A model generated the notes under the pieces. That model was not told where the DNA came from, searched no databases, and worked only from the letters and a program-made list of their open reading frames with translations. From Tannerella sp. (GTDB lineage Bacteria; Bacteroidota; Bacteroidia; Bacteroidales; Tannerellaceae), in NCBI GenBank assembly GCA_031257565.1, contig JAIROL010000009.1, positions 1-62,315 on the forward strand: a stretch of DNA of 62,315 nucleotides, given 5' to 3'. Position 1 is the stretch's first letter. The number at the start of each line of letters is the position of its first letter. Positions 1,339 to 30,767 of this stretch are shown here, piece after piece. The position numbers were made by a program, and so were the translations under genes.

Positions 1339-1376
1339 TGACGTTTTTTGAGGGGAAAAAAACGTTTTTTGACTTG
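1339..1376 (+). promoter_or_regulatory. Predicted operator A: tandem half-sites 21 bp apart
   Basis: The 10-mer ACGTTTTTTG occurs at 1341-1350 and again at 1362-1371, exactly 21 bp (two helical turns) apart. The second copy ends 26 bp before the -7 box at 1398. The same layout recurs before three other operons in this window (10287, 12631, 30701). The inferred binder is the XylR/AraC regulator at 9113-10300. Confidence 0.6.
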
Positions 1377-1397
1377 AATAACATCTTCTTATTTCGT

Positions 1398-1405
1398 TAT
1401 TTTTG
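1398..1405 (+). promoter_or_regulatory. -7 box TATTTTTG of the ceramidase/murQ operon
   Basis: An exact TAnnTTTG match 18 bp before the ATG at 1424. No good -33 TTTG lies at the usual 19-20 bp spacing, as expected for an activator-dependent promoter. Confidence 0.6.
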
Positions 1406-1423
1406 TATAAAAATCAGATAGGT

Positions 1424-2803
1424 ATGCCACGATCTATATCATTAACAATCCTGTGTTTATTCTGTTTCTGCAGTTACCTGCTTGCGACGGAAACGGGAGG
1501 CGGACAAACAAATCCGGCTCCGGACAGCCTTTGTATTTCCGTATTTGATATCGACGCAACTCCGCCTGTCGGCAGTTGGTTGGCTTACGATCCCATGGCG
1601 AACCGATGGGATCTGAGCCTCCGCGCCAAAGGAATTGTAATTACAGGCATAGAAAAACCGGTCGTTTTATGCGCGATTGACTGGATCGGTATCGCCAATG
1701 AAAGCCAGGATGCTTTTAAGGAGGCACTGGCGGCAGCGGCAAATACGGATTTTCATCACGTGGCCGTTCACACGTTGCATCAACACGATGCGCCGATCTG
1801 TGATTTCACAGCCGAAACGATTTTAAAGGACGCCGGCATAACGCCGACCAGCTTCAACGGCGATTTTGCCCGTCAAACGATCGAAAGATTAAAAGTCGCC
1901 ATCAGCGAATCCCTCAAAAATCCGCAACCTGTTTCACATGTCAAAACAGGAAATGCGCCCGTTTATCAGGTGGCTTCGAATCGCCGGATTGCGAAAGCGG
2001 ACGGATCCATGGAAGCGATGCGTACGACCGCCTGTAGAGATTCGGCGCTCCGAGCCAAGCCGGAGGGGTTAATTGACCCGGATGTTTCGCTCATCAGTTT
2101 CTGGAATCAGGAAAAACCTATTGCCGCGCTCACCTTTTACGCTACGCACCCGCAAAGCTATTACCTGACGAAAATTGCCAATCCGGATTTTCCGGGAATA
2201 GCGCGGTTTATCCGGCAAATGGAAATACCTGAGGCCCTGCATATCCATTTCAACGGAGCCGGAGGCAATATCGGAGCCGGTAAATACAATGACGGATCGC
2301 CGGAAAACCGGTTGATATTGGCTCGGCGTCTGGCCGACGGAATGAAAAGAGCCTGGGAAAACAGCCTGACGTCTTCCGTTCGCATCAATGAAATTTCATG
2401 GAAAACCGAACCGGTTGCGCTTCCTGTCGCCGACGAAATGGAAGCGCACATTGAGGCGGATATGAAATCAAAAGACATGCGTTACCTTACCAATAATCTG
2501 GGACGTTTAGGCTGGATGAAACGCCGGAAAGCCGGAAAAACCATTGATATCGGATGCTTGGGTATCGGTAATGCCAGGGTCCTGTTCATGCCGGGCGAAC
2601 TGTTTATCGAATATCAGTTAGCGGCCAAAGCCCTGCGGAATGATCGCTTTGTCGCCATGGCGGCGTATGGCGATTACGGCCCTTTTTACATCGGGACAAA
2701 GGAAGCCTACCAACAAGGCGGATATGAAATCCAGTCCAGCCCCGTAACGAAAGAAGCGGAAGAAATCCTGATGAACGCGATTCGTACGCTTTTATCGGAA
2801 TAG
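1424..2803 (+). CDS. Neutral/alkaline ceramidase-like secreted protein
   Basis: An exported protein of about 459 residues with a signal peptide (MPRSISLTILCLFCFCSYLLA). I chose the ATG at 1424 because the upstream in-frame TTG at 1403 lies inside the -7 promoter box. The body resembles the neutral ceramidase N-terminal domain: VVLCAIDWIGIANES, HHVAVHTLHQHDAP (the histidine-rich metal-site strand), ALTFYATHPQSYY, HFNGAGGNIGAGKYND and, near the end, MPGELFIEYQLAAK. Characterised family members are Zn-dependent amidases acting on ceramide, but in Bacteroidota glycan loci the substrate is unknown and could be an N-acyl sugar. It is the first gene of an operon with murQ, an aminotransferase, a second ceramidase-like protein, a kinase and an esterase. 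Confidence 0.7.
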   Translation: MPRSISLTILCLFCFCSYLLATETGGGQTNPAPDSLCISVFDIDATPPVGSWLAYDPMANRWDLSLRAKGIVITGIEKPVVLCAIDWIGIANESQDAFKEALAAAANTDFHHVAVHTLHQHDAPICDFTAETILKDAGITPTSFNGDFARQTIERLKVAISESLKNPQPVSHVKTGNAPVYQVASNRRIAKADGSMEAMRTTACRDSALRAKPEGLIDPDVSLISFWNQEKPIAALTFYATHPQSYYLTKIANPDFPGIARFIRQMEIPEALHIHFNGAGGNIGAGKYNDGSPENRLILARRLADGMKRAWENSLTSSVRINEISWKTEPVALPVADEMEAHIEADMKSKDMRYLTNNLGRLGWMKRRKAGKTIDIGCLGIGNARVLFMPGELFIEYQLAAKALRNDRFVAMAAYGDYGPFYIGTKEAYQQGGYEIQSSPVTKEAEEILMNAIRTLLSE

Positions 2804-2835
2804 CGCTGATAATAATTACTCAAATACATCAACAA

Positions 2836-3672
2836 ATGAGAAAAGTAACGGAAGAACCTTCGCTGTACAATCGCCTTGAAAAAATGACGGTAGAGGAACT
2901 AACTGAGAATATTAACAAAGAGGATAAAAAAGTGGCCTTTGCCATCGAAAAATCGTTGCCCCAATTGGTCAATATGATGAAAGCGATTGAGGAAAAATTA
3001 AAAAAGGGAGGTCGCCTGTTTTATTTAGGAGCAGGTACGGGCGGCAGGTTGTCGGTACTCGATAAAGTGGAACTCCCGAACACGTACGGCATCGAAAAAG
3101 GAATCATCAATTGTATTCTGGCAGGCGGTGAGGAACATCTGGTCGAAGCGCTGGAAGAAAAAGAAGACGATGAAGCAGACGCCACCCGTCAAATGGAACG
3201 ATATCAAGTGAATCCGGACGATTTCGTCGTCGGGATTTCAGCCAGCGGCACAACTCCTTTTGTATTAGCCGGCCTGAAAAAATGCCGTATGGAAGGCATT
3301 GCCTGCGGATGCGTCGTAAATAACCCGGACTCTCCGATTGCAGCAACAAGCGACTATCCGGTAGAAATTGTCATAGGCCCTGAATTTGTCACGGGAAGCA
3401 CCCGGATGAAATGCGGGACGGCACAGAAAATGGTCTTCGACATGATAAGTACTACCGTATTAATTCGTCTGGGACGAGTCGAAGGAAACCAAATGGTGAA
3501 TGTCAGGCTTATCAATAACAAGGTGATTGACCGTTCAACTAAAATGTTAATGGAATTAAGCGGTATCAAAGACTATACGCAAGCGAAGAATCTTATTATT
3601 ACGCATCAAAACGTGAAAAATGCGATGGATTACCTGAAAACAAATACAGCAAATATAAACTTTAATATGTAA
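2836..3672 (+). CDS. murQ: N-acetylmuramic acid 6-phosphate etherase MurQ
   Basis: A cytoplasmic SIS-domain lyase that cleaves the D-lactyl ether of MurNAc-6-phosphate, giving GlcNAc-6-phosphate. At 278 residues it has the family length. It carries RLFYLGAGTGGRLSVLD, VVGISASGTTPFVLAGL and the signature TGSTRMKCGTAQKMVFD. It lies 32 bp after the ceramidase-like gene and 4 bp before the aminotransferase, in one operon. With the kinase at 7019, the MFS transporter at 30898 and NagA at 32300 it forms a full route from MurNAc or GlcNAc to glucosamine-6-phosphate. Tannerella forsythia has a comparable MurT-MurK-MurQ set (established knowledge). Confidence 0.92.
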   Translation: MRKVTEEPSLYNRLEKMTVEELTENINKEDKKVAFAIEKSLPQLVNMMKAIEEKLKKGGRLFYLGAGTGGRLSVLDKVELPNTYGIEKGIINCILAGGEEHLVEALEEKEDDEADATRQMERYQVNPDDFVVGISASGTTPFVLAGLKKCRMEGIACGCVVNNPDSPIAATSDYPVEIVIGPEFVTGSTRMKCGTAQKMVFDMISTTVLIRLGRVEGNQMVNVRLINNKVIDRSTKMLMELSGIKDYTQAKNLIITHQNVKNAMDYLKTNTANINFNM

Positions 3673-3676: not shown

Positions 3677-5011
3677 ATGAACAGACGTAATTTTATAGAA
3701 AAAGCAGCATTAGCCGGCGGTAGTTTATTATTTATGCCCTCTTTTACGAAAGCGGCTTTCACTGCAGGTAACATAAAACCGGCATTATTAGGTGGAAAAA
3801 AGGCTTATCCGGCAAGTTTCACAGCTTGGCCAATCTATAATGGCCGGGAGGAGGAAGCGCTTCTCAGTACGCTCAGATCCGGTAAATGGGGCCGTTTGGA
3901 TGGTCGGAAGTCCGCGACTTTCGAATCGGAATATGCAAAAGCATTAGGTGTGAAACATACATTGGGATTGGCAAGTGGTACGAGCGCCCTCTATACCATG
4001 TTAGGCGCCATTGGTATCGGTCCGGGAGATGAAGTAATTATCCCGCCTTATACTTTCGTCGCGACCTATAATGTAGTCGTTCTGAATTATGCATTGCCTA
4101 TTTTTGTTGATACGGATATCGAATCATTCCAGATCAATCCGGATAAAATAGAAGCGGCCATCACTAAACAAACGAAAATGATTATGCCTGTTCACATGGG
4201 CGGATCACCAGCAGATCTGGACCGGATTTTACCCATCGGAAAAAAATATAATATCCCGATCATCGAAGATGCCTGCCAGGCACACCTGGCCGAATGGAAA
4301 GGAAATAAAGTTGGCTCATACGGACTGGGTGGCGCCTTTAGTTTCCAATCTTCTAAAAATCTGAATTGTGCGGAAGGCGGGGCGATCTCTACAAACGACG
4401 ACGATTTCATAAGAAGATGTTACAGTTTCCACAACCAGGGACAAGGCGGAACATCTACCTCTTACGGCGTCGGATCCGGAACAAGAGGCGCTAACATGCG
4501 TATCACAGAATTTCAAACCAGTATATTACTGGCTCAGATGACACGTCTGGAGCAACAAGCAAAAACAAGATATGAAAATGCATTGTACCTGACTCAGTTA
4601 TTAAAGGATGTACCTGGCATCACTCCGGCGAAATTATACGAAGGCACAACGAACAGCGCTTACCACCTCTATATGTTCCGCTATAATCCGTCGCATTTTG
4701 CGGGACTAAGCCGCGACAAATTCATCAAGGCGCTTTCCGCCGAAGGTGTACCATCTTCTACCGGATATGGAAAGATGAATATCAGCGATTATGTGACCGG
4801 ACTGGCTAAAAATCCGCATTTCCTGAAAGTCTATGGGGAAAAAGTTATGAAAGAATGGTTGGAACGTAATCTTTGTCCGCAAAATGATAAGCTCACAGAA
4901 CAAGCGCTATGGTTCACGCAAACGATGTTACTGGGTTCCCGAAGCAACATGGAACAAATTGCCGATGCAATTCGTAAAATTCAAAAGTATGCAAAAGATT
5001 TGAATAAATAA
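3677..5011 (+). CDS. DegT/DnrJ/EryC1/StrS aminotransferase with a Tat-type signal
   Basis: A PLP-dependent fold-type-I aminotransferase of 444 residues. The PLP lysine is the K of SFQSSKNLNCAEGG; the upstream IIEDACQAH carries the pyridine-binding aspartate. The N-terminus reads MNRRNFIEKAALAGGSLLFMPS: a twin arginine, a hydrophobic stretch and an alanine-rich end, which is a Tat signal. Tat export would let the protein carry a pre-bound cofactor to the periplasm, which is unusual because most DegT enzymes build nucleotide sugars in the cytoplasm. It lies 4 bp after murQ and 12 bp before the next gene. It is paralogous to the fragment at 1-581. Substrate unknown. Confidence 0.85.
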   Translation: MNRRNFIEKAALAGGSLLFMPSFTKAAFTAGNIKPALLGGKKAYPASFTAWPIYNGREEEALLSTLRSGKWGRLDGRKSATFESEYAKALGVKHTLGLASGTSALYTMLGAIGIGPGDEVIIPPYTFVATYNVVVLNYALPIFVDTDIESFQINPDKIEAAITKQTKMIMPVHMGGSPADLDRILPIGKKYNIPIIEDACQAHLAEWKGNKVGSYGLGGAFSFQSSKNLNCAEGGAISTNDDDFIRRCYSFHNQGQGGTSTSYGVGSGTRGANMRITEFQTSILLAQMTRLEQQAKTRYENALYLTQLLKDVPGITPAKLYEGTTNSAYHLYMFRYNPSHFAGLSRDKFIKALSAEGVPSSTGYGKMNISDYVTGLAKNPHFLKVYGEKVMKEWLERNLCPQNDKLTEQALWFTQTMLLGSRSNMEQIADAIRKIQKYAKDLNK

Positions 5012-5023: not shown

Positions 5024-7015
5024 ATGAAGATGAAAAAAACACTTTTATATTATAGCCTGTTCTTCCTGCCGACAGTTAGTTCCTGTCATACGGATTATTA
5101 CGACGTCGGAGCTGCCGCCGTCAGTATCGAGCCGAACCGGGAAACCGTCTCGTTGACGCTGGCCGGCTTTGCAAGCCCGGACGAAGGCCGGTTCACGATC
5201 ACATGGGATGATTTGGGCGAATATCCGGTCACCTCATTATCCCGGATCGCCGATTCGGTACTTTTTTTAAACGACAACTACATGTTATCCATTTCGGGAA
5301 AGCAGGATTTACAATCCGGTAAACCATTAGCAATGAACATGCCTGTCAAAGAAATTGCTTTTTTTAAAAATGATTTTTACGGCATTAACCTGAAAGACGA
5401 ATTAGTCAAAGGCGCCAGGACGGATCAAACGATTTCATGGACGATCATAAAACCGGCGATCAAACTGGCGACGCTAACAGCCACAGACGATGGATTATAC
5501 ATTGTAAACCTTGAAAATAAATTATTGAAAGGCATACCGGATGAGGACGGACTTCGTTGGATAAGCGACGATCACATGCCTGGGATTATAAGCCTTACGT
5601 CCGACGCGAAACATTCCTCGCAGCCGTCGAGCGCAGCCCCCGAATCGATCATAAGCCTCGCTTCCGACACGAAACGGCTATATGGCCTGACCAGCCATAA
5701 TACCTTGTGGCAAAAATCGCTTTCCAAAGACGAACCCTGGGGAAAAATCGGCTATAAAAACAATGTGACGTATACGATTGACGCCATCCGGATTGCGTTT
5801 ATTAATAACAACCTGTATGCTATCGACGAAAAAAAACATTTGTATAAAAGCCGGCACAGTACCGTCGGCGACCTGCAGGCAACCGCCATGAGCATCCGGA
5901 AAAACGGCAGAACAGTCGTTATTGTCGGTGTTGATGTGTGTGGTTTTGACAAATCCTTTACCGACCTCATCAAAGAGGAGGTATACCAAAAAAGAGGCAT
6001 TGCCGGAGAGGCTATCCTGATCAATGCTTCGCATTCTCATTTTGCACCGGTGACGCAAAGCTGGATCACATGGCAACCTCCCAATCAAAAACCGGACAGC
6101 TTATATTTGCTGCAGGTAGTCCGGACGGGAATTATCAAAGCGATTGAAGAATCGCTTGATAACGCGCAACCTTCCCGCCTTTACCTTCAGCGGGGAAGCT
6201 GCGATATCGGAAAAAACAGGACGAGGATAGAAGGATATACCATATACGACAATACGGTCGACGTAATAACAGCCGTTTCCGTAAAAGATCAAAAAAAATG
6301 CATCCTTTACCTTGCCGGTTGTCACCCGGTATTTACAGAACCGGAAGTCGGTCATTTTACGATCAATGCGAATTTTCCCGGTTTTTCCCGGAAGTTGTTA
6401 GCGGACGATCCGGATATTGAACATGCCATTTTCCTGCAGGCTTTTGCCGGCGATATTAATCCGAAGGATCCTTTCCGGAAATCCGGCGAACAATTGGCAG
6501 ACAGCGTACTGCAAATCATGAACCGGGCGACGCGACATGAAATCAGGGGCGATCTTTCTTTCTTCATGGACACGATTGCCATTGCCATTACGCCGCCTAC
6601 CCTTTCCGAAATCGAATCGTTTAAAGCGGCAAACCTCCCAAAACAAGGAGAAATGGTGGCAAACAGAGATATAAGATGGGCCGATGTGATGCTTGAACAT
6701 CACCGCAAGAACCGGATGCCTGACGAAATGCCGGTTTATTATCAAACATTGAATGTCGGAAACTGGAAACTAATCGCACTTTCCAGAGAGGTTACAACCG
6801 AATTTGGCATCGTCATCCGGGATCTCTGGCCGGATCGGCACGTTTCGGCAATTGCCTATACGAATGATGTGCCGAGTTATTTAGCGACGGATCCGCATAT
6901 CCGGGCCAAAAATTACGAGGGATACGGATCTTTCTTCTGGTATGCACAACCGAAACCGTTTCCGCTGAAATCATTTGAAAAAGTCATTGACAAGATAAAA
7001 CACATAAATCATTAG
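5024..7015 (+). CDS. Ceramidase-like lipoprotein with an inserted beta-propeller
   Basis: A lipoprotein of 663 residues (lipobox VSSC near residue 21). The start of a neutral-ceramidase-like domain is visible (DVGAAAVSIEP, then LTLAGFASPDEGRF). It is interrupted from about residue 60 to 285 by four or five repeats with the pattern hydrophobic-x-LYxIxxxxxLxK (for example GLYIVNLENKLLKG, RLYGLTSHNTLWQK, NLYAIDEKKHLYKS), like a tectonin-type propeller. The ceramidase fold resumes at TAMSIRKNGRTVVIVGVDVC and continues with ILINASHSHFAP, LAGCHPVFTEP and QAFAGDINPKD. It sits between the Tat aminotransferase and the kinase, 3 bp before the latter. Probably cell-surface or periplasmic; a carbohydrate-amide substrate is inference. 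Confidence 0.7.
   Translation: MKMKKTLLYYSLFFLPTVSSCHTDYYDVGAAAVSIEPNRETVSLTLAGFASPDEGRFTITWDDLGEYPVTSLSRIADSVLFLNDNYMLSISGKQDLQSGKPLAMNMPVKEIAFFKNDFYGINLKDELVKGARTDQTISWTIIKPAIKLATLTATDDGLYIVNLENKLLKGIPDEDGLRWISDDHMPGIISLTSDAKHSSQPSSAAPESIISLASDTKRLYGLTSHNTLWQKSLSKDEPWGKIGYKNNVTYTIDAIRIAFINNNLYAIDEKKHLYKSRHSTVGDLQATAMSIRKNGRTVVIVGVDVCGFDKSFTDLIKEEVYQKRGIAGEAILINASHSHFAPVTQSWITWQPPNQKPDSLYLLQVVRTGIIKAIEESLDNAQPSRLYLQRGSCDIGKNRTRIEGYTIYDNTVDVITAVSVKDQKKCILYLAGCHPVFTEPEVGHFTINANFPGFSRKLLADDPDIEHAIFLQAFAGDINPKDPFRKSGEQLADSVLQIMNRATRHEIRGDLSFFMDTIAIAITPPTLSEIESFKAANLPKQGEMVANRDIRWADVMLEHHRKNRMPDEMPVYYQTLNVGNWKLIALSREVTTEFGIVIRDLWPDRHVSAIAYTNDVPSYLATDPHIRAKNYEGYGSFFWYAQPKPFPLKSFEKVIDKIKHINH
5585..5675 (+). 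repeat. Short internal duplication inside the propeller insertion
   Basis: Two near-identical stretches, around 5585-5612 and 5648-5676, encode IISLTSDAKH and IISLASDTKR. They are separated by a serine/proline-rich linker (SSQPSSAAPES) that looks like a recently expanded blade junction. Confidence 0.5.
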
Positions 7016-7018: not shown

Positions 7019-7873
7019 ATGATATTAATAGCTGATAGCGGCTCCACGAAAACAAGCTGGCACTTAGTTAAGGATGGAAACGTCCGGACGACTTTTTCTT
7101 CGGAAGGGTACAATCCGTGTTACATGAAAAAAGAGGCGATAACGCGCTCCTTAAAAAAGCAACTACCTGAAAATTACGCCTGGGAGCAGGTAAAAGAAAT
7201 TGCATTTTACGGCGCGGGTTGCTACGAAGACAAATATACGGTCATACAAGAGGCCATGCGCCCACTCTTTCCCCAGGCGCGTATTTTTGTGGCAATGGAT
7301 TTGTTGGCTTCTGCCAGGGCATTGTTAGGTAATCAGCCCGGTTTCGCCGCGATTTTAGGTACCGGAACCAATTCCTGCCTGTATGACGGGCGTCAGATTA
7401 CTCATAACATTGACTCTTTGGGCTTTATGTTAGGAGATGAAGGAAGCGGAGCCTATATCGGAAAACGCCTGATTGGAGATTTCATTCGAGGCTATATGCC
7501 GGAAGATATTCAGCAGACTTTTCGTGAAACATACCGACTAACAGCCGATGAGCTGATCGACCGGATTTACTTAGGAGAAAATCCGAATCGGTATTGTGCC
7601 GGCTTTACCCGTTTTATTTCCGGTTACGGGAGAAAGAACGAATATCTGGATTCCGTCGTATATGAAGCCTTTACTGATTTCTTCAACAATATTGTTTGCG
7701 GTTATCCGTCGTTCAGCGACTATACGTTTAATTGCGTCGGAAATATAGGTTGGATATTTAAGGATACGCTGGTTCGCGTGGCCGAAAAATTCCGGATGAA
7801 AACGGGAAAAATTATCAGCGAACCGATGGAAGGGTTGATCGAATATCACAAACTGCCAAATTCAGCGACATAA
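7019..7873 (+). CDS. BadF/BadG-type N-acetylamino-sugar kinase (MurNAc/GlcNAc kinase candidate)
   Basis: An ASKHA-fold kinase of 284 residues. It carries the phosphate-1 motif LIADSGSTKTSWHL at the N-terminus, phosphate-2 AAILGTGTNSCLYDG near residue 115, and the GFMLGDEGSGAYIGKRL glycine-rich loop near residue 140, typical of the N-acetylglucosamine kinase/BadF family. In an operon with murQ it most likely makes MurNAc-6-phosphate or GlcNAc-6-phosphate in the cytoplasm. Starts 3 bp after the ceramidase-like gene. The choice between MurNAc and GlcNAc cannot be read from sequence; Tannerella MurK is the closest functional precedent I know of. Confidence 0.82.
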   Translation: MILIADSGSTKTSWHLVKDGNVRTTFSSEGYNPCYMKKEAITRSLKKQLPENYAWEQVKEIAFYGAGCYEDKYTVIQEAMRPLFPQARIFVAMDLLASARALLGNQPGFAAILGTGTNSCLYDGRQITHNIDSLGFMLGDEGSGAYIGKRLIGDFIRGYMPEDIQQTFRETYRLTADELIDRIYLGENPNRYCAGFTRFISGYGRKNEYLDSVVYEAFTDFFNNIVCGYPSFSDYTFNCVGNIGWIFKDTLVRVAEKFRMKTGKIISEPMEGLIEYHKLPNSAT

Positions 7874-7894: not shown

Positions 7895-8917
7895 ATGAAC
7901 AGAACATTATTCCTACTTGTATTATTGTTATTTCTCGCTACCTGTACAACAAAAAACGTTCAGGACTGGGAATATAAACGCACAGAAATACTGGACAGCA
8001 TGCAGGCGGCGATGGGCATCTTACCGGATCTAAAAAAACTGCCGCCACCTGCCATACAATATACGGATAGCGTTCGCCGATCCGGATATATCTGTTACAC
8101 AGTGATTCTTACCGTAGCGCCAGACGAAGTGGCGCCGGCGTTGCTATATATGCCGTATCCGGCAGAAATGCGAAAACCATGTCCGGCCATGTTGGTATTG
8201 CACTCCACAGGCGCTCCGGGCAAAAAAATTGTAGACGGCCAAAGTCCGCAGGAAAATCGGGCGTGCGGAAAAGAACTTGCTGAAAGAGGCTATATCGTCA
8301 TCGCACCCGATTATCCCGGGTTCGGAGACCTAAGTAATTATGATTTCGAACACGACCGCTACGAATCCGGGACGATGAAAGGTATCTTCAATCACATCCG
8401 GTGTATTGATTTACTATGCCAAATGCCTGAAGTTAATCCGGATAAAATCGGAGTGATCGGACATTCTCTCGGCGGCCACAATGCCATGTTTGTCGCGGCA
8501 TTCGACACGCGCATCAAAGTCATTGTTTCAAGTTGCGGCTGGACGCAGCATGAGTTCTATGACATAGGCCCCAAAGCCGCCGAACAGTACGGAGGCAGGT
8601 TAGGCCCTTACGCACAAGACAGATACATGCCGTTATTCCGGACTAAATATCAATTAGACCCCGAAAAGATACCCTTTAATTACCACGAAGTAATTACGGC
8701 TTTCGCCCCCCGTCCCTTTTTTTCCAATTCGCCGATAAATGATAGCAACTTTAGCGTGGAAGGCGTAAAAGTCGGCGTCGCACTTGCCTCCGAAGCATAT
8801 AAACGCTTCGGAAAAGAAGAAAACTTACAAGTCGTTTATCCGGATACGGGCCATCACTTTCCCCGGGAAATCCGGGAAATGGCCTATAAATTTATTGATT
8901 TACACCTTAAACAATAG
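7895..8917 (+). CDS. Alpha/beta-hydrolase lipoprotein (esterase)
   Basis: A lipoprotein of 340 residues with signal MNRTLFLLVLLLFLATC. An alpha/beta hydrolase of the dienelactone-hydrolase/acetyl-esterase type: the nucleophile serine is in IGVIGHSLGGHNAMF, the histidine in YPDTGHHFPRE, and an acidic residue lies between (FFSNSPINDSNF region). GYIVIAPDYPGFGD precedes the nucleophile as in these esterases. It closes the operon starting at 1424 (21 bp after the kinase), so it probably removes acyl groups from the glycan outside the cytoplasm. Exact ester unknown. Confidence 0.78.
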   Translation: MNRTLFLLVLLLFLATCTTKNVQDWEYKRTEILDSMQAAMGILPDLKKLPPPAIQYTDSVRRSGYICYTVILTVAPDEVAPALLYMPYPAEMRKPCPAMLVLHSTGAPGKKIVDGQSPQENRACGKELAERGYIVIAPDYPGFGDLSNYDFEHDRYESGTMKGIFNHIRCIDLLCQMPEVNPDKIGVIGHSLGGHNAMFVAAFDTRIKVIVSSCGWTQHEFYDIGPKAAEQYGGRLGPYAQDRYMPLFRTKYQLDPEKIPFNYHEVITAFAPRPFFSNSPINDSNFSVEGVKVGVALASEAYKRFGKEENLQVVYPDTGHHFPREIREMAYKFIDLHLKQ

Positions 8918-9075
8918 TTCGTTCTAATTTTAAATTACCGAAGGTTTCCCGGTCCCCTCACCCGTGCCCGCAACAAATAAAACCAAGTTCGTTTTTTTGT
9001 TTATACCGGACAAAACTTATTTCCGATACAACGCCTGTATTTTTTTCAAAACAAACAATCTATTGATATTTTTTT

Positions 9076-9083
9076 TATATTTG
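9076..9083 (+). promoter_or_regulatory. -7 box TATATTTG of the regulator gene
   Basis: An exact TAnnTTTG match 29 bp before the ATG at 9113, in an AT-rich stretch. A lone half-site-like TTCGTTTTTTTG lies farther upstream at 8988-8999, too far from the box to match the arrangement of operators A-D. Confidence 0.6.
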
Positions 9084-9112
9084 TCCCGATAATTTTTCCT
9101 AAAAATGTATCT

Positions 9113-10300
9113 ATGATTAAAATTCTGCTATTAACAGATTTCTCCAGCGAATATAGTAGAAACATATTAAAAGGAGTGGTAAAATATTCGAAAGAACAAG
9201 GGAGCTGGGCTTTTCAGCGTATGCCTTTGTATTACCGGATGGTTTATGGAGAAACAGGAGTATTGGACTGGGCGAAAAAGTGGAAAGCAGATGCAATAAT
9301 TGCATTGCTTAAAGATGTAAATGTTGAATTACTGAATAACCTTCATATACCGATCATTGTTCAGAACTACCGGGACAGGAATCCGCATGTATCCAACCTT
9401 ACCGGTAATTATTACGGAACAGGCGTTATGGCTGCCCGTTTTTTTATGAATAAAGGATACAAACAATTTGCCTATTACGGTTTCAAAGGCGCTATCTGGT
9501 CAAGAGAAAGAATGGAGGGCTACAGGGACGAAATAGAAAAACACAACTATTCGCTTTATACTTTTGAGGATAGGCCTCTCGATAAAGAGGAATGGAGTTA
9601 TAACAATACGGAGCTGGCACAGTGGATTGAAGAATTACCGAAACCCATTGCCCTCTTTGCTTGCGACGATATGTTCGCTCTGCGTATTTCTGAAACGTGT
9701 AACATCTGCAACATAAAAGTTCCGGATGAAATTGCGATTCTTGGCGTGGACAACGACGAATTGTTGTGCAATATCTCCGATCCTCCGCTATCTTCAATCA
9801 AAGTCGACGCTATTAACGGCGGATACCAGGCCGGGAAACTATTACACCAATTAATAAACAAAGAAATTTCACCGCCGGTAAATATTGTCGTAGAACCTCT
9901 AATGATTGAAAACAGAGGTTCTACAAATAAATACGCAGTCTCCAATAAATATATACGACACATTCTTAACTACATAGATAAGAATTATACCAATCCTGTT
10001 TCCGTCGCCGAATTAGTGAAACAAATACCGTTATCCAGAAGGGTTTTGGAAAAAAAGTTCAAAGCCGAGACAAATGATACATTATATCAATATATACAAA
10101 ATTACCGTATAAATGTATTCAAGCGATTATTACTTACTTCCAATGATTCTTTATTTGATATTGCCTTTCAGTCGGGATTTGATAACTACAAAAATGTCTT
10201 TCGGGTTTTCAAAAAATATAATGCAATCTCACCTGCAGAATATCGTCGGCGCTATACGAATAATAATATGGAAAACGCCACGGATATTGACGTTTTTTGA
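9113..10300 (+). CDS. XylR-type regulator: sugar-binding domain fused to AraC HTH
   Basis: A cytoplasmic transcription factor of 395 residues. Residues 1-270 form a LacI/periplasmic-binding-like sensor (MIKILLLTDFSSEYSRNILKGV, then LFACDDMFALRISE and IAILGVDNDELLC). Residues about 275-385 form an AraC-type double helix-turn-helix (VSVAELVKQIPLSRRVLEKKF and SLFDIAFQSGFDNYKNVFRVF). This is the architecture of XylR, an activator binding tandem direct repeats upstream of its promoters. Its own promoter is TATATTTG at 9076. The end of the gene contains the first half-site of operator B for the next operon. I infer that it senses a sugar and activates the four operons with operators A-D. Confidence 0.9.
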   Translation: MIKILLLTDFSSEYSRNILKGVVKYSKEQGSWAFQRMPLYYRMVYGETGVLDWAKKWKADAIIALLKDVNVELLNNLHIPIIVQNYRDRNPHVSNLTGNYYGTGVMAARFFMNKGYKQFAYYGFKGAIWSRERMEGYRDEIEKHNYSLYTFEDRPLDKEEWSYNNTELAQWIEELPKPIALFACDDMFALRISETCNICNIKVPDEIAILGVDNDELLCNISDPPLSSIKVDAINGGYQAGKLLHQLINKEISPPVNIVVEPLMIENRGSTNKYAVSNKYIRHILNYIDKNYTNPVSVAELVKQIPLSRRVLEKKFKAETNDTLYQYIQNYRINVFKRLLLTSNDSLFDIAFQSGFDNYKNVFRVFKKYNAISPAEYRRRYTNNNMENATDIDVF

Positions 10301-10324
10301 AGGTTTTGTTTCGTATTTAGGGGG
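10287..10324 (+). promoter_or_regulatory. Predicted operator B: tandem half-sites 21 bp apart
   Basis: TTGACGTTTTTTGA at 10287-10300 covers the last codons and stop of the regulator gene. A weaker copy, TCGTATTTAG (7 of 10 matches), starts 21 bp later at 10311 and ends 25 bp before the -7 box. Confidence 0.55.
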
Positions 10325-10345: not shown

Positions 10346-10353
10346 CATATTTG
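10346..10353 (+). promoter_or_regulatory. -7 box CATATTTG before the Gfo/Idh/MocA gene
   Basis: Seven of eight matches to TAnnTTTG, 27 bp before the ATG at 10380 and 25 bp after operator B. Confidence 0.5.
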
Positions 10354-12630: not shown

Positions 12631-12667
12631 TTTGACGTTTTTGGAATATATTTTTTCGGAATATTGG
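12631..12667 (+). promoter_or_regulatory. Predicted operator C: tandem half-sites 21 bp apart
   Basis: TTTGACGTTTTTGGAA at 12631-12646 matches the strong half-site; TTTTCGGAATATTGG at 12653-12667 is a degenerate second one on the same 21-bp register (conserved TTCG and trailing GG). It ends about 25 bp before the -7 box at 12691. Weakest of the four sites. Confidence 0.45.
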
Positions 12668-12690
12668 ATAATCTCACCGGCTTTGATACT

Positions 12691-12698
12691 TTTCTTTG
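12691..12698 (+). promoter_or_regulatory. -7 box TTTCTTTG of the first susC operon
   Basis: Seven of eight matches to TAnnTTTG, 35 bp before the ATG at 12734. Confidence 0.45.
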
Positions 12699-18109: not shown

Positions 18110-18113
18110 TATT

Positions 18114-19175: not shown

Positions 19176-19227
19176 CATTACTATTTTGATTACATTTACA
19201 AAAAATAAATGGACAGGAGATTATATT

Positions 19228-21609: not shown

Positions 21610-21648
21610 CCACCCATCAGGAAAAGCAACTCATTATTATTTATACGT

Positions 21649-24003: not shown

Positions 24004-25367
24004 AGAAAAAACAACAGATAATACCAATCGTCATTTTATTATTTTCCCCGCCGCTTCATTCATGGCATGTGAATGTACGCGTAATAACACAGCAAGGGAA
24101 AGAGGATGTATCCCCCATGGATGAAAATAGGCATCCTGTCGTAGCTGAAGATGCGTCCTGGTGTTGGTTTTCGGATCCCCGAGCCATTTACCGCAAGGGT
24201 AAAAAGGAAGCGGTTTATTTTGGTTATATAAATTCAAAAGGCGATGTAATGATTAAATCTTATGATTTGAAAACAAAAGAAACAGACGAATTTACGTTAC
24301 ATAAACAATTACAATCGGATGATCATAACGTACCGGGCTTATTATTTTTACCTGATGGCAAACTGCTGGCTTTTTACGGTCGCCACAACGGAGATATTTT
24401 TATGAGGAAAAGTAAAGCAACGGAGAACATTCGCGAATGGGAAGATGAAATTATTTTACTTAAAAAGGACGACAAAAACCGCTATTGTTATGTTAATCCG
24501 GTTATGTTAAGCGAAGAAAATAACCGCATCTATCTCTTTGGACGAAACATTGTAAAAAACACAAAAGGGACTTATACCGATACGAGAACCTATTGTATTT
24601 ATAGTGATGACTTAGGCGATACATGGAGCGGAGAATTAAACATATTGGACAATTCAGGTATGAACAGTCGTCAATACGTTAAAGTCGCTTCCGATAATAA
24701 GTCCCGAATCGATTTTCTGTTTACAAACGGCCATCCCGGACAGGAAGACCCTGTTTCTGTTTATCATATGTATTACAAGAAAGGGGCTTTTTATCAAACG
24801 AACGGTAACCGTATCACCTCACCGGAAAAGGGAATACCCGTTAAAATCAATGAAGTAAATAAAGTGTACGATACCGGTTCCACCTCTATCAGAGCCTGGA
24901 TCTGGGATATTGCTTTAGACAATAAAAACAGGCCGGTTATCACATATACCCGCTATCCCTCTTATACGAACCATCAGTATTATTACGCAAAATGGAACGG
25001 CAAAAAATGGAATGAACATAAAATAGTCGATGCCGGAAAATACATCACTACGGTTAAGCCCGGAAAAAAAATATCGGAATATTACTACTCCGGAGGGATC
25101 GTATTAGATCCTAATAATCCGGATGTAGTTTTCTTATCAAGGGAAATCAATGGAATATTCGAGATTGAACAACGGACAATTAAAGAAGGCGACATTCAAA
25201 TTATAAAAACAATAACGGGCAGTTCAACATCCGACAATATACGTCCATACGTTGCAGCAGGCAAAAATCACGGATTACCGGTCATGATGTGGATGACGGG
25301 GCGTTACTATCACTACACCGATTACGAGACGAAACTCAAACTGCTTCATACGGCGGACGATTCGTAA
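24000..25367 (+). CDS. BNR_4-type beta-propeller protein (lyase candidate)
   Basis: A secreted protein of 455 residues (signal IVILLFSPPLHSW). BNR_4 hallmarks: DASWCWFSDPRAIYRKGKKE at residue ~50, then YFGYINSKGDVMIKSYDLK, DDHNVPGLLFLPDGKLLAFY, and the late IWDIALDNKNRPVITYTRYP. Single-propeller proteins of this type include ulvan lyases of family PL25; the substrate here is unknown. Starts inside the preceding gene's stop (ATGA), so the two are co-translated. Confidence 0.72.
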   Translation: MKKKQQIIPIVILLFSPPLHSWHVNVRVITQQGKEDVSPMDENRHPVVAEDASWCWFSDPRAIYRKGKKEAVYFGYINSKGDVMIKSYDLKTKETDEFTLHKQLQSDDHNVPGLLFLPDGKLLAFYGRHNGDIFMRKSKATENIREWEDEIILLKKDDKNRYCYVNPVMLSEENNRIYLFGRNIVKNTKGTYTDTRTYCIYSDDLGDTWSGELNILDNSGMNSRQYVKVASDNKSRIDFLFTNGHPGQEDPVSVYHMYYKKGAFYQTNGNRITSPEKGIPVKINEVNKVYDTGSTSIRAWIWDIALDNKNRPVITYTRYPSYTNHQYYYAKWNGKKWNEHKIVDAGKYITTVKPGKKISEYYYSGGIVLDPNNPDVVFLSREINGIFEIEQRTIKEGDIQIIKTITGSSTSDNIRPYVAAGKNHGLPVMMWMTGRYYHYTDYETKLKLLHTADDS

Positions 25368-25391
25368 ACCCGCCATCGCCACGGAGTTCTT
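25366..25391 (+). repeat. 26-bp repeat, copy 1
   Basis: This stretch, containing CGCCATCGCCACGGAGTTCT and starting within the stop codon of the BNR_4 gene, is identical to 30651-30676 downstream of the second susD. The five bases before it (TTCGT) are also shared apart from a one-base indel. Confidence 0.85.
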
Positions 25392-25428
25392 TACAGTCAA
25401 ACTTTTATTAATTCAAGAATCCTTTTTT

Positions 25429-28400
25429 ATGAACAACCATAAAACTAATATGACAACACACAAGAGATCCTGTACGATCATATGCTGCATTTGTATCCTG
25501 TTTTTTTGCCACAATCTGATAAAGGCCGACCAGTATAAGCAGGCGATATCTCTCATAAGCGCCAATCAAATAACAAACCCGCAACAAAATTATATAATTA
25601 CAGGTACGGTGACCGACGAGAATGGGGAGGCGGTCATTGGAGCTAATATCTCCGTTAAAGGCGCTACGCGCGGGATTATAACTGATATTGACGGAAATTA
25701 CAGCATTGAAGTTTCTTCCGGAGAAACGCTTATTGTAACCTATATCGGCTACCTGTCGCAGGAAATCAAAATTGACAAACAAACACGGATTGACGTAAAA
25801 CTGACAGAAAGTTTACTGGCGTTGGACGAAGTCGTTGTCGTAGGATACGGAACGATGCGGAAACAGGATTTAACCGGTTCGATCGGTACGATGCGGGCAT
25901 CCAAATACGAAGATGAAAAGCCGAAGAATATCCAGGACTTGTTACGTGGTAATATTGCCGGCCTGAATATTGGAATGACAACAAGCGCAAAAGGCGGAGG
26001 CGATCTGCTGGTAAGGGGAAAAAGAACGCTCAAAGCTTCTGCTACACCTCTCCTGGTATTGGATGGCGTCATCTATAACGGATCGCTGGACGACGTCAAT
26101 CCTAACGATATAGAATCTATAGACGTCCTGAAAGACGCCAGTTCGGCTGCCGTATATGGAGCCAAATCAGCAAATGGAGTCGTCATTATCAATACGAAAA
26201 AAGGAACGTTAGGCAAACCCGCTATCGGAGTCAATGTTGGCATTGGTATTGCCGATCTGTTTCGTTCCGCGGACGTCTATGAAGGAGAAAAATTCATTGA
26301 CTGGCGGTCGGATGTTTTACAGAGCATAAACCGAAACGCTCCGGCTTATGTTTTCCGAGATCCGAGAAAACTGCCTTCAGGCGTATCGCTTGACGAATGG
26401 AAAGCTTATGACGGTTCAACGGGAGATGAGATGAATATCTGGCTTCGAAGGATAGGGATGTCGCAACCTGAAAGGGAAAATTATGTGAAAGGTCAGACGA
26501 CCGACTGGAAAGACATGGTTTTCAGAACAGCATTACAGCAAAATTATAACGTAAGCGTTTCGGGAAAAAGCGACAAGGTAACCTACTACTGGTCTATGGG
26601 GTATACAAACAACGAAGGGGTTATTGAAAAAGACGACTATTCGATTTTCAGAAGTCGCCTTCGCTTGGAAGCAGACGTCGCAAATTTCTTAGCCGTGGGA
26701 TTAAATACTTTACTTTCATACCGGATGGAAAATGGCGGAGGAGGCGTTGCCTGGAGTCAAATTGAAAAACTATCTCCTTACGGACAACCAACCAATCCCG
26801 ACGGTTCTTATAAAATATATCCGACCGACGACGCCGTAGCTGCCAAACATCCGCTGATCGACCGGGAATTCACGCAACGCGATTACACATATAAATCATT
26901 GGACAACACGCTGTTTGCCAAACTGACGCTTCCTTTCGGCATATCCTATGAATTTAATTATTCGCCCCGGATCACCAATAATGATTTATACATCTACCAA
27001 TCAGCCGAACATCCGGAATATGCCAACGACGGAGGCATTGCCACCCGCACGCCCAGCAGTACATTCTTATGGCAGATTGACAATATTCTGAGATGGAAGC
27101 ACACATTTAAAACAGATCATAATGTGGATGTGACATTACTGGCTAATGCGGAAAAAAATCAGACATGGGAACAGAGTATGACCGGAAAACAATTTGTACC
27201 AAGCGATGTATTAGGATATCATAATATGGGGTCGGCAACCGTTGTCGCCATAAGAAGTACGGATAGCTATAGCACGGGCGACGCATATATGGGGCGTTTA
27301 TTTTATTCTTACAAATCAAAATACCTGTTCACAGGAACAATCCGGCGAGATGGTTATTCAGCCTTCGGAACCAGTAATCCACGGGCAACATTCCCATCTA
27401 TTGCATTAGGATGGGTTTTTACGAATGAATCATTTATAAATCAAGCAGAATGGCTCAATTACGGGAAATTACGCCTGTCATGGGGATCTAATGGAAACCG
27501 CTCTATCGGTATATACGACGCTTTATCATCCATGCAAAATGGGATGATTACGTATATGAGTTCAAATGGAACACTCTATCAGGAATCCTATTTAAACTCC
27601 AATCGCATGAGTAATCAGTTTCTCAAATGGGAAAAAACAGAATCATACAACATCGGATTTGACTTGTCTTTTTTAAATGAAAGGTTAAACGCTAATCTGG
27701 ATGTATATACAATGAATACAAACGACCTGTTGGTAGACAGATCATTACCTAATATCACCGGATACGCCTCCGTCGCTTCCAATCTTGGAGAAATTAACAA
27801 CAAAGGATTTGAAATCACGTTATACTCAAATAACATCGATACCGAAAATTTTTCATGGAGAACTTCATTCAACTACTCTATGAACAGAAATAAAATAAAG
27901 TCGCTATACGGCGATAGGGTCGACGTCTATGATACCAATGGAGATGTGATCGGCCAAAAAGAAGCCGACGATATAGCGAATAAATGGTTTATCGGACATG
28001 CTACGGATGAGATATGGGATTATAAGGTAGACGGCGTATGGCAAGCCGGAGAAGAGGAAGAAGCGGCCAAATACAAATTGGCTCCGGGCGATTTTAAACT
28101 AAGAGATGTAGACGGAGATGGTCAATTCACAAACGATGACAAAGTATTTCAGGGATATACGACCCCTCGTTTCAGATGGTCTATGCGTAATGAGTTTAAT
28201 TTTCTGAAGCATTTCGATTTTTCCTTCTCTATGTATTCTTACTGGGGACATAAAAGAGTTTTTAACCAGGCAAAACACAATCCGACGATGACATTGGAAC
28301 GGTTTAATTCGTATGTCCTGCCCTATTGGACGCCCGAAAATAAACAAAATGACTTTGCCCGTTTAAATTCCAACATGGCGGGCGTAACATTTGACGTACA

Positions 28401-28611
28401 CCAGGACATGTCATTCGTCCGGCTGGATAATATCACGTTAGGATATAACGTATCGCAAGCATTACTGAGCAACTATAAAATTTCACGGTTAAAGTTGACA
28501 TTAAGCGCCAGAAACGTGGCCGTTTGGACGAAGAAGTTTGTTCTGTGGGATCCTGAGTATAGCGGCCCGACGCCTTCTTATGTAACATTCGGATTAAACC
28601 TATCAATGTAA
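25429..28611 (+). CDS. SusC/RagA TonB-linked outer-membrane transporter (second)
   Basis: A protein of 1060 residues. It has a beta-sandwich (ITGTVTDENGEAVIGANISV), TonB-box region LDEVVVVGYGTMRKQDLTGS, plug (DASSAAVYGAKSANGVVII) and barrel, ending PSYVTFGLNLSM. The start at 25429 has a long cationic/hydrophobic N-terminus (two Met options; the second at 25450). It pairs with the SusD 39 bp downstream. No promoter of the TAnnTTTG type is obvious in the 61-bp gap, so it may be read through from the upstream genes. Confidence 0.96.
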   Translation: MNNHKTNMTTHKRSCTIICCICILFFCHNLIKADQYKQAISLISANQITNPQQNYIITGTVTDENGEAVIGANISVKGATRGIITDIDGNYSIEVSSGETLIVTYIGYLSQEIKIDKQTRIDVKLTESLLALDEVVVVGYGTMRKQDLTGSIGTMRASKYEDEKPKNIQDLLRGNIAGLNIGMTTSAKGGGDLLVRGKRTLKASATPLLVLDGVIYNGSLDDVNPNDIESIDVLKDASSAAVYGAKSANGVVIINTKKGTLGKPAIGVNVGIGIADLFRSADVYEGEKFIDWRSDVLQSINRNAPAYVFRDPRKLPSGVSLDEWKAYDGSTGDEMNIWLRRIGMSQPERENYVKGQTTDWKDMVFRTALQQNYNVSVSGKSDKVTYYWSMGYTNNEGVIEKDDYSIFRSRLRLEADVANFLAVGLNTLLSYRMENGGGGVAWSQIEKLSPYGQPTNPDGSYKIYPTDDAVAAKHPLIDREFTQRDYTYKSLDNTLFAKLTLPFGISYEFNYSPRITNNDLYIYQSAEHPEYANDGGIATRTPSSTFLWQIDNILRWKHTFKTDHNVDVTLLANAEKNQTWEQSMTGKQFVPSDVLGYHNMGSATVVAIRSTDSYSTGDAYMGRLFYSYKSKYLFTGTIRRDGYSAFGTSNPRATFPSIALGWVFTNESFINQAEWLNYGKLRLSWGSNGNRSIGIYDALSSMQNGMITYMSSNGTLYQESYLNSNRMSNQFLKWEKTESYNIGFDLSFLNERLNANLDVYTMNTNDLLVDRSLPNITGYASVASNLGEINNKGFEITLYSNNIDTENFSWRTSFNYSMNRNKIKSLYGDRVDVYDTNGDVIGQKEADDIANKWFIGHATDEIWDYKVDGVWQAGEEEEAAKYKLAPGDFKLRDVDGDGQFTNDDKVFQGYTTPRFRWSMRNEFNFLKHFDFSFSMYSYWGHKRVFNQAKHNPTMTLERFNSYVLPYWTPENKQNDFARLNSNMAGVTFDVHQDMSFVRLDNITLGYNVSQALLSNYKISRLKLTLSARNVAVWTKKFVLWDPEYSGPTPSYVTFGLNLSM

Positions 28612-28650
28612 ATATAAACCCTGAAGATATTAACACAAATACGATATATC

Positions 28651-30495
28651 ATGAAGAAGTTTAAAAATATAATTTCAATGAAAAGCATATGCTGGATATG
28701 TATCTTAAGCATACTATTAGGATGTTCCGACGACTACCTGACGCCAAAACCTCTTTCGTTTATCACAACGGAAGCCGGATTGGTAAATGCAGAATCGATG
28801 TATTCGACCCTGTCGGCAAGCACGATACTTATCCGAAACCATTACATGGACGGAAGTTTTGCGCCTTGTATGTTCACGGAATATTTATTCACGGAAGTGA
28901 TGATTGACGGAACAACAGATAAGACGTTTCCTTGTCGCGACATGAACCGACTGGTTATACCGGACGGAGTCTTGACCGACGCCAGCTACAATCGGATCGA
29001 AACATGTTGGTCGGAAGCTTATGCCGGCATAAAAAGCGCATCCAACGTGATTACCAATATTGACTATCCCACCTATACAGATGAAAGCGAAAGAAACGCA
29101 ATACTGGGGACAGCTTATTTTCACAGAGCTTTCTGGTTTTATCTGTTAACGCATCGATTCGGAGACGCTCCCTGGATCAATTCACAGATAAAAGAACCGA
29201 AACTGAATTTTTACTCAACAAAAAGAGAAGTTATCCTCGAACAATTGAAAAAAGACCTCGAATTTGCCGTCCGGTGGGTACCCGAAAAAATGGACAAAGG
29301 AAAAGTATCCAGAGGCGCATGTTATCACTTGCTAACGAAAGTTTATCTTGCGTTGAATCTGTTTGATGACGCTGTAAAATCGGCGTCGGCTATTATCAAT
29401 GGAGACTATTCCCTCATGACAAACCGTTTCGGCTCAGATAAAGACGACGATACAAAAAATGTCATCTGGGATTTGCACCGTCCTGCAAATAAGACGCTTC
29501 CGGAAAATAATGAAGAAATTTTTTCCGTTATCGACCGCTATGGAATGACCGGTAATATTGCAAGCGGCATGACTTCCATGTATATTTTTGTTCCAAATTG
29601 GGGTAATACGACAAACGCCATTATGACCCCTAACGGAAACCCGGGAATGTCGGAGCTCCTCGCCAATGAAATTGATATTATTCATGAAATCGGAAGAGGC
29701 GTAAACAAGGGTCGGGGAACAAATTACTATACCCGTTATATCAATGACGATTCAAACGATTTACGCTATACAAAAGGAAACTGGTATGTGATGGAAGATC
29801 TCAGATATAATAATCCGGCGATAAAAGGCAAGGATGATTATTATGGAAAAAACCTGCAATTATATGATGATGAAGGAAATATCCTCACAAGAGACACGAT
29901 CCGAAATTGGACCGGCGGATGGCCTCATTATAAATTCTTCATTCCTGATCCGATCCGTACACAACCCCGCGGGGGAAATACCGACTGGTATATCTTCAGA
30001 CTGGCAGAGACATACCTGCTACGTGCAGAAGCCTATTTTTGGTTAGATAACAAAGCAAATGCTATCGCTGACGTAAACAGGGTAAGGACGCGCGCCGGAG
30101 CCTCGCCGCTCACGGATATAGCGAATTTTAATATCGGAACCATTCTGGATGAACGCGCCCGTGAACTATTTTATGAAGAAACGCGCAAATGCGAGTTAAC
30201 GCGTATTGCTTTTACCTATGCACGGACAGGAAAACCATGTTACAATGGAAAAACATATAGCCTGTCTTCATTTTCCGAGTCGAACTTCTGGTATGACCGC
30301 ATGATGGAAAAAACCGAATTCTTTAATAAAGGCATCGCAACGGTTGCGGGCGATGAATTTACAATGAGTCCATATCACGTACTATGGCCCATTCCTCAAC
30401 GCGTAATTGATGCAAATTCGTTGGGGATAATCAATCAAAACAAAGGATACGCCGGCTATGAAAATAATGTAGCTCCATTGGATAAAATCGAATAA
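28651..30495 (+). CDS. SusD/RagB glycan-binding lipoprotein (second)
   Basis: A lipoprotein of 614 residues (SICWICILSILLGCSDDYLTPKPLSF). SusD signatures: NAILGTAYFHRAFWFYLLTHRFGDAPW, and RLAETYLLRAEAYFWLDNKA with ELFYEETRKCELTRIAF near the C-terminus. It lies directly after the second susC and closes the central part of the polysaccharide utilisation locus. Confidence 0.96.
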   Translation: MKKFKNIISMKSICWICILSILLGCSDDYLTPKPLSFITTEAGLVNAESMYSTLSASTILIRNHYMDGSFAPCMFTEYLFTEVMIDGTTDKTFPCRDMNRLVIPDGVLTDASYNRIETCWSEAYAGIKSASNVITNIDYPTYTDESERNAILGTAYFHRAFWFYLLTHRFGDAPWINSQIKEPKLNFYSTKREVILEQLKKDLEFAVRWVPEKMDKGKVSRGACYHLLTKVYLALNLFDDAVKSASAIINGDYSLMTNRFGSDKDDDTKNVIWDLHRPANKTLPENNEEIFSVIDRYGMTGNIASGMTSMYIFVPNWGNTTNAIMTPNGNPGMSELLANEIDIIHEIGRGVNKGRGTNYYTRYINDDSNDLRYTKGNWYVMEDLRYNNPAIKGKDDYYGKNLQLYDDEGNILTRDTIRNWTGGWPHYKFFIPDPIRTQPRGGNTDWYIFRLAETYLLRAEAYFWLDNKANAIADVNRVRTRAGASPLTDIANFNIGTILDERARELFYEETRKCELTRIAFTYARTGKPCYNGKTYSLSSFSESNFWYDRMMEKTEFFNKGIATVAGDEFTMSPYHVLWPIPQRVIDANSLGIINQNKGYAGYENNVAPLDKIE

Positions 30496-30650
30496 TGAAC
30501 CGACCTGCTCTCGGACGCAAAAAAACTTATGATATTTTGGTGAAATTTGATGAAAATGCCGAAAATTTCTCTGTTCGACCATATAAGAATAACGCACAAA
30601 TTACCGGTGGTATTAGGTGCAAATGCCGTGAGCTTATCGCCTAATTCGTG

Positions 30651-30676
30651 AAACCCGCCATCGCCACGGAGTTCTT
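30651..30676 (+). repeat. 26-bp repeat, copy 2
   Basis: Identical to 25366-25391. Here it stands 25 bp upstream of operator D, not at a stop codon. Confidence 0.85.
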
Positions 30677-30700
30677 CCGATCTCCTCCGCCGACAGATAA

Positions 30701-30737
30701 TTGACGCTTTTTGAAGATTCAAATTCGTTTTTAAGGC
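30701..30737 (+). promoter_or_regulatory. Predicted operator D: tandem half-sites 21 bp apart
   Basis: TTGACGCTTTTTGAAG at 30701-30716 and ATTCGTTTTTAAGGC at 30723-30737; the ACG and TCG cores are 21 bp apart. The second core ends 25 bp before the -7 box at 30760. Confidence 0.6.
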
Positions 30738-30759
30738 ATTTTTAGATCATATTGAATAA

Positions 30760-30767
30760 TATCTTTG
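30760..30767 (+). promoter_or_regulatory. -7 box TATCTTTG of the transporter/nagA operon
   Basis: An exact TAnnTTTG match in register with operator D; it implies a leader of about 125 nt. A second exact match, TAGCTTTG at 30832-30839, would give a shorter leader and could be a constitutive start. Confidence 0.6.

Follow-up and report, generated by a model that had tools for sequence, protein, structure and literature searches.

The operator layout of XylR at the Escherichia coli xyl promoters, the class II definition for AraC-type activators, and the half-site spacing and I1-I2 layout of AraC form the general background here. E. coli XylR has tandem sites upstream of the promoter (general knowledge and excerpts of PMC12125979), and in Vibrio a XylR-type activator, XylRA, governs a xylan/xylose regulon through AT-rich direct repeats upstream of several operons of a polysaccharide locus (same excerpts). 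Hybrid two-component regulons of Bacteroides thetaiotaomicron likewise combine an AraC-type domain with ~21-bp direct repeats at polysaccharide-use loci, and the protein called "XylR" in that species belongs to the NrtR family (excerpts of PMC3878776). For loci that encode SusC and SusD (SusCD), the schemes given in excerpts of PMC3878776 and PMC10766802 are hybrid two-component, SusR-like, and sigma/anti-sigma control. Tannerella forsythia has a murTKQ operon with MurQ and a BadF/BadG-type kinase, described in a paper whose main text does not contain the word "regulator" (PMC5790795). Here we describe a 62,315-bp stretch of DNA from Tannerella sp. (contig JAIROL010000009.1; hereafter, the window), which is contig C222 of a 4.47-Mb, 294-contig gut Bacteroidales genome that is 94% complete. 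We predict, with a probability of roughly 0.84, that the XylR-type protein encoded at 9113-10300 controls a single regulon with four tandem sites in the window as operators, acting as an activator for N-acetyl-amino-sugar catabolism.

How does this regulator compare with the described ones? The xylR-type gene (9113-10300, plus strand) encodes 395 aa with a LacI-like sensor domain (Peripla_BP_3, residues 109-271) followed by an AraC DNA-binding domain (HTH_18, residues 303-380), which is the domain composition of XylR-type proteins. Residues 3-379 align with residues 7-385 of E. coli XylR (4fe4, E = 5.6e-45)—that is, end to end and in the same domain order (4fe4, 4fe7). In contrast to the B. 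thetaiotaomicron hybrid systems, the protein is a one-component regulator: its 395 aa hold a LacI-like sensor and the helix-turn-helix domain alone, and neither histidine kinase nor receiver is present. It also differs from E. coli XylR in its half-site (WTGACGYTTTTTGARG), its Bacteroidota -7 box, and its many operons, including SusCD. Neither xylose isomerase nor xylulokinase occurs among the targets annotated here, a set that leaves some unmatched neighbors unexamined; given this absence, "XylR" denotes the type of protein only. Vibrio XylRA differs in its xylose ligand, gammaproteobacterial hosts, and unrelated targets (excerpts of PMC12125979). The nearest named relatives of the regulator are in Tannerella sp. 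metagenome-assembled genomes, Ct408_bin163 (91% identity) and TD116_bin54 (92-94% over two pieces). A single full-length XylR was found in the genome, the next match (E = 5.8e-11) covering the DNA-binding domain only. In the gap before xylR (8917-9113), the window scan found no operator and no terminator-like site is listed; xylR may be transcribed from the first operon. In one relative, G071 (locus L045), a partial xylR has a codirectional site 117 bp ahead of it and may control itself.

The four predicted operators, all on the plus strand, span 1338-1374, 10287-10323, 12632-12668, and 30701-30737 (operators 1-4). Their first half-sites are ATGACGTTTTTTGAGG at 1338, TTGACGTTTTTTGAAG at 10287, TTGACGTTTTTGGAAT at 12632, and TTGACGCTTTTTGAAG at 30701. 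The first ACG lies at 1341, 10290, 12635, and 30704 and the second (A/T)CG exactly 21 bp on, at 1362, 10311, 12656, and 30725; in operator 1, for example, half-site 1 occupies 1338-1353 and half-site 2 ~1360-1374 in this 21-bp register. Operator 2 overlaps the 3' end of xylR, the stop codon of which lies inside it, and its half-site 1 (10287-10300) also serves as the final codons and stop of the gene. Each operator is followed by a -7 box: TATTTTTG (1398-1405), CATATTTG (10346-10353), TTTCTTTG (12691-12698), and TATCTTTG (30760-30767), starting at motif positions 61, 60, 60, and 60, respectively, which gives two registers one base apart. The end of the downstream half-site is ~23-25 bp before the box in all four cases. 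The predicted operators are thus tandem direct repeats abutting the promoter, as in XylR-type regulators, and with 21-bp spacing and half-site 2 at the -33/-35 position they have the class II layout of AraC-type activators. Compared with the Bacteroidota housekeeping -7 consensus, TAnnTTTG, the TTTG is exact in all four boxes and the TA in two; no -33 motif was seen in Flavobacterium johnsoniae (both from excerpts of PMC7366714), and none is conserved across 22 aligned sites in our data. The original prediction had placed half-sites, 21-bp partners, and -7 boxes within 1-3 bases of these positions.

Could such sites arise by chance similarity among AT-rich promoter regions? Runs of T are common, and TTGACGTTTTTTGA with up to two mismatches matches the genome 85 times, compared with 84 times for its reversed control; a half-site this frequent in the control means that the short motif alone proves nothing. 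The signal lies instead in close matches joined to a 21-bp partner and a -7 box. With at most one mismatch, TTGACGTTTTTTGA occurs at eight places genome-wide, of which four are the window sites. These eight were selected by the first half alone, and seven carry CG at +21 (P = 1.5e-8, assuming a CG frequency of 0.057 taken from the window and three further loci); six have TTTG at position 60 or 61, the two without it being the minus-strand site on contig C237 and the match on C167. The C167 match was dropped, as it lies inside the coding sequence of a Na+/H+ exchanger and has neither partner half-site nor box. A position-weight scan of the window returned exactly the four sites (39.8 to 50.2 bits), and the reversed window gave no site of at least 12 bits. 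Over 318 kb of loci, most of them chosen because they bear sites, 28 sites reached at least 18 bits on the forward sequence and none exceeded 11 bits on the reversed one. Of 148 relatives, 16 contain a composite pattern (half-site, CG at +21, and TTTG at +61/62, counted from the first base of the pattern), at 33 places in all; its reversed control occurs nowhere. For the set as a whole, chance is already refuted and can be given next to no credence.

We then have a sequence-only profile, R1, built on 22 of the 33 composite places, from 13 relatives; its alignment leaves out the six places of this genome, four of its nearest kin G034 and G039, and one place in G033 (7405-7469). Scoring 150 of 4,984 first-look candidates in this genome, R1 gave nine matches (E = 4.5e-12 to 7.6e-5), followed by a gap from 25.1 to 17.6 bits and a next match at E = 0.016. 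The nine comprise the four window operators (E = 8.0e-8, 1.3e-8, 6.8e-5, and 3.4e-11 for operators 1-4), two sites on contig C229, two on C237, and one on C254. Operator 3 is the weakest of the four by E-value, in agreement with the weak second copy originally noted at 12656. Both it and the C254 site were recovered even though neither fits the collecting pattern. Matches are therefore concentrated at the locus (four of nine) rather than spread over random AT-rich sites, the outcome that a genome-wide tandem-motif search had been expected to give if the motif were real. Among the five matches outside the window, three precede functionally related genes and two form the pair on C237. With the C229 and C254 sites, the predicted regulon is larger than the four operons first proposed.

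The C237 pair (L010, 3240-4029) appears as a decayed divergent operator pair, the start of its remnant Gfo/Idh-like gene being judged by eye. We rejected its sites as working promoters: the minus-strand site is directed at a phosphoenolpyruvate carboxykinase gene from its 3' side and has no -7 box, and the plus-strand site heads only the short remnant. A dispersed repeat of ~100 bp occurs in the window (42136-42230 and 52136-52248), in L009 (9643-9764, 11076-11177, and 18008-18169), and in L010 (1352-1480 and 3883-4029), once directly before a C229 operator and once after the C237 remnant. The ends of contigs C229 and C237 share the same 119 bp.

How do sites and regulator relate across relatives? 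XylR, called at E <= 1e-60, was detected in 25 of the 148 genomes. It co-occurred with the composite motif (13 genomes with both, 3 with the motif only, 12 with XylR only, and 120 with neither; P = 1.5e-9), as did R1 sites (E <= 1e-4; 25 genomes) and XylR (26 genomes) among 123 genomes of the family (18/7/8/90 in the same order, P = 2.5e-10). These P values, like the others for co-occurrence, ignore kinship, and the many-genome R1 searches used stricter filters that lose weak matches. At finer scale, we compared 30 XylR neighborhoods, 21 of orthologues (49-100% identity) and nine of paralogues (39-45%). A site of at least 23.3 bits lies near xylR in 19 of the 21 orthologue loci, 18 times within ~170 bp and once, at L046, at 202 bp. 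Some of these sites are codirectional with xylR and sit at its 3' end, and others occupy the opposite strand at its 5' end; in L045 a codirectional site precedes the gene. The two orthologue loci without one, L023 and L038, belong to genomes that have sites elsewhere. When the flanks were scanned without requiring a box, TTTG stood at the expected place in 17 of 21 matches. Paralogue loci gave one weak site with the weight matrix, at L041 (19.0 bits; 19/2 versus 1/8, P = 6.4e-5). Eight of the nine paralogues form a long branch in the tree with 100/100 support; the ninth, L047, has a long branch of its own and an unsure place.

These distributions bear on the possibility that the sites are bound by some other regulator with an AraC domain, a hybrid two-component system being the likeliest candidate, with xylR a passenger or a target. 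Several observations lend this substance and weigh against our own reading. Hybrid two-component regulators use the same repeat layout, the direct repeats of Bacteroides motifs lying at an average distance of 21 bp (excerpts of PMC3878776), and this genome holds many AraC domains, eight of them in reading frames of ~1,300-1,500 codons that are possible hybrid two-component systems. Seven of the 25 site-bearing family genomes (G010, G023, G029, G037, G050, G149, and G154) have no XylR at E <= 1e-60, and five of the seven have none at E <= 1e-20 either; G050, a single contig that is 99% complete, has one marginal site (E = 5.2e-5). Among the 107 genomes that remain once the training set of 13, the genome itself, and its nearest kin G034 and G039 are set aside, the association is weaker (5/4/8/90, P = 0.0012). 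The R1 training sites were, moreover, gathered by a pattern derived from this genome's own sites, so the R1 test is not fully independent. Nor is the operator type exclusive to orthologues: R1 adds a second paralogue site (E = 1.0e-4), in the 3' flank at L049, for a total of two in nine paralogue loci. Both are diverged, L041 (G048, ~1468, minus strand) and L049 (G038, ~1413, plus strand) having TGCRTAAWATGAGGAT in place of half-site 1 and keeping CG at +21 and the TTTG box, which suggests that the paralogues use a related operator. Such sites, found at the 3' ends of xylR paralogues, hint at operator divergence after duplication. Finally, the BNR, esterase, and DUF4466 genes of the third operon have no obvious link to amino sugars.

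Control by another AraC-domain protein is nonetheless unlikely in our judgment. Full-strength sites follow the XylR orthologues and not the paralogue clade, and in different genera they adjoin xylR (19 of the 21 orthologue loci). A XylR search of the window found xylR to be its sole AraC-domain protein, although not every window protein was scanned for such domains. Six of the seven genomes without a detected XylR are assemblies 63-90% complete. In five of the seven (G010, G023, G037, G149, and G154), the sites precede matches to regulon proteins; the gene downstream of the G050 site matched none, and the G029 site gave no regulon match when re-examined (L129), an earlier reading (L070) having matched a 425-aa family described below. 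The idea put forward at the outset, that one XylR/AraC-type regulator may join the four operons, draws support from the genome-wide profile, from the sites beside xylR orthologues, from related targets, and from the single full-length XylR.

What would this regulon contain? Behind operator 1, and like all the window genes below on the plus strand, lies the ceramidase-like gene cerA1 (1424-2803; Ceramidase_alk, 21.1 bits, below the Pfam cut-off of 32.1), for which an ATG start at 1424 is preferred over a TTG at 1403 because the TTG falls inside the -7 box. It is followed by murQ (2836-3672), of the N-acetylmuramic acid 6-phosphate etherase family (NF003915, 311.5 bits, above the subfamily cut-off of 168; TIGR00274, 253 bits, below the cut-off of 302); a DegT/DnrJ/EryC1/StrS aminotransferase gene (3677-5011); a second ceramidase-like gene (5024-7015; 21.7 bits, below the Pfam cut-off); a gene for a MurK-like sugar kinase of the BadF/BadG type (7019-7873; 24.4 bits, below the Pfam cut-off of 31.5), which matches solved MurNAc-kinase entries, among them 8ow9, "Putative novel MurNAc kinase," at E = 6.3e-59; and a glucuronyl-esterase-like alpha/beta hydrolase gene (7895-8917). 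MurQ with a kinase of the same family recalls T. forsythia murTKQ, from which this operon differs in that no murT was seen in it and that ceramidase-like and DegT genes are added. Operator 2 precedes a Gfo/Idh/MocA oxidoreductase gene with a twin-arginine signal (10380-11717), whose nearest NCBIfam model is glycoside 3-dehydrogenase BT_2158 (152.5 bits, far below the cut-off of 750); a short esterase-like open reading frame (ORF; 11825-12415; Pfam matches below cut-offs) possibly shares its operon. Operator 3 heads a run of SusC, SusD, 133-aa, DUF4466, BNR, esterase, BNR, SusC, and SusD genes (12734-30495), which from their common strand and short gaps are probably one long operon. Operator 4 precedes a NagP-like sugar transporter gene of the major facilitator superfamily (30898-32250; NF046060, 324 bits, below the cut-off of 625) and nagA, for N-acetylglucosamine-6-phosphate deacetylase (32300-33490; TIGR00221, 278 bits, above the equivalog cut-off of 225.65).

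Outside the window, C229 encodes a NagB-like protein (below equivalog cut-offs) and a ceramidase-like copy that does exceed the Pfam cut-off. It also carries a 425-aa protein (L009, 6956-8233, minus strand) without Pfam or NCBIfam match or good PDB match, which is a recurrent regulon member: four relatives' copies are 70-75% identical, and operators precede it in G033, G029, and G037. For the 27 composite sites of relatives, an ORF of at least 80 codons lies within 450 bp in 26 cases; all but one of the 26 have a match among the regulon proteins (13 to Gfo/Idh/MocA, 6 to DegT, 3 to the 425-aa family, 2 to SusC, and 1 to NagP). We give less weight to DegT and SusC matches at 30-45% identity and to one Gfo/Idh match (28%), as these are large families.

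Synteny tells a similar story. The G043 locus runs xylR, site, Gfo/Idh, NagP, NagA, NagB-like, and a second Gfo/Idh. G033 has xylR, three sites, C229-type genes, NagA, and NagP within 17 kb of a 20-kb piece, with 88% (NagB-like), 91% (DegT), 79% (ceramidase-like), 80% (SusC), and 83% (SusD) identity to C229. Four R1 matches fall within ~41 kb of xylR in the 4.8-Mb genome of G042, and in G034 an orthologue (92%) of the C254 Gfo/Idh gene adjoins the start of xylR. G155 and G159 were both outside the training set; their sites are located ahead of Gfo/Idh (77% and 67%) and NagA genes and where xylR ends, and one G155 site has unnamed genes downstream. Also in G155 (L165, 592-2284), an operator heads ORFs of 168 and 329 aa, with a SusC-like gene behind them. 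Judged by their sizes and order, the two ORFs are possibly a sigma/anti-sigma pair, in which case control would run as a cascade. Genes of families GH20, GH123, GH2, and GH16 are present in relatives' loci as well.

The predicted targets are then nagA, nagB-like, the NagP-like transporter, murQ, the MurK-like kinase, Gfo/Idh/MocA, DegT, ceramidase-like, and SusCD genes. Together with the GH genes of relatives, murQ, nagA, and the NagP-like, MurK-like, and NagB-like genes point to the catabolism of N-acetyl-amino sugars, and the regulon genes are probably switched on together when an amino-sugar-rich glycan is available. A more specific substrate, a glycosphingolipid or other amino-sugar glycan, was considered from the ceramidase-like and GH20, GH123, GH2, and GH16 genes and set aside as too weak to claim.

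How might the switch work? A cytoplasmic XylR dimer would bind a sugar ligand through its LacI-like sensor domain, the ligand probably being either an N-acetylated amino sugar or a derivative, or else a short oligosaccharide that contains one. The two AraC domains would then settle on the same-orientation half-sites, 21 bp or two helical turns apart and on one face of the DNA, the second half-site sitting where sigma would contact -33. Because the aligned sites share no conserved -33 element, ligand-bound XylR would probably act as a class II activator in recruiting the housekeeping RNA polymerase of Bacteroidota. Switched on in this way would be outer-membrane uptake by SusCD, inner-membrane uptake by the NagP-like transporter, and breakdown by MurQ, the MurK-like kinase, NagA, and the NagB-like, Gfo/Idh/MocA, DegT, and ceramidase-like proteins. 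It is also conceivable, at odds only slightly better than for another AraC-domain regulator, that XylR binds these sites as a repressor or both represses and activates: LacI-type sensors are often found in repressors, and operators close to a promoter can block RNA polymerase. Here, by contrast, the operators of this genome end before the -7 box is reached, and each of the six first-half-selected sites with such a box has it starting at position 60 or 61. A conserved -33 element is also missing; the AraC domain, together with the E. coli homologue (general knowledge and excerpts of PMC12125979), points to activation, which we prefer.

A search of open-licence PubMed Central titles and abstract beginnings, with regulon databases outside its range, returned no description of this regulon; the regulon is new, and its mechanism is of a known type. 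The comparative tie among operator, regulator, and targets is strong enough for direct testing. Shared control with nagA, nagB-like, murQ, and the MurK-like kinase offers a functional handle on the Gfo/Idh/MocA, DegT, and ceramidase-like proteins and on the 425-aa family. The results also point to a one-component protein with an AraC domain and a LacI-like sensor at a SusCD locus. More speculatively, and with rather less than even confidence, Tannerellaceae may use this cytoplasmic XylR-type protein as a one-component master switch dedicated to the breakdown of an N-acetyl-amino-sugar substrate, for which muropeptides and a hexosaminidase-dependent glycan are possibilities. The signal sensed would be an amino-sugar cue inside the cell, not an oligosaccharide in the periplasm, and the switch would command a pathway of exported aminotransferase, glycoside-3-dehydrogenase-like, and ceramidase-like enzymes. 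If true, an internal-sensing master switch of the XylR type would add a class of regulator to those usual for such loci.

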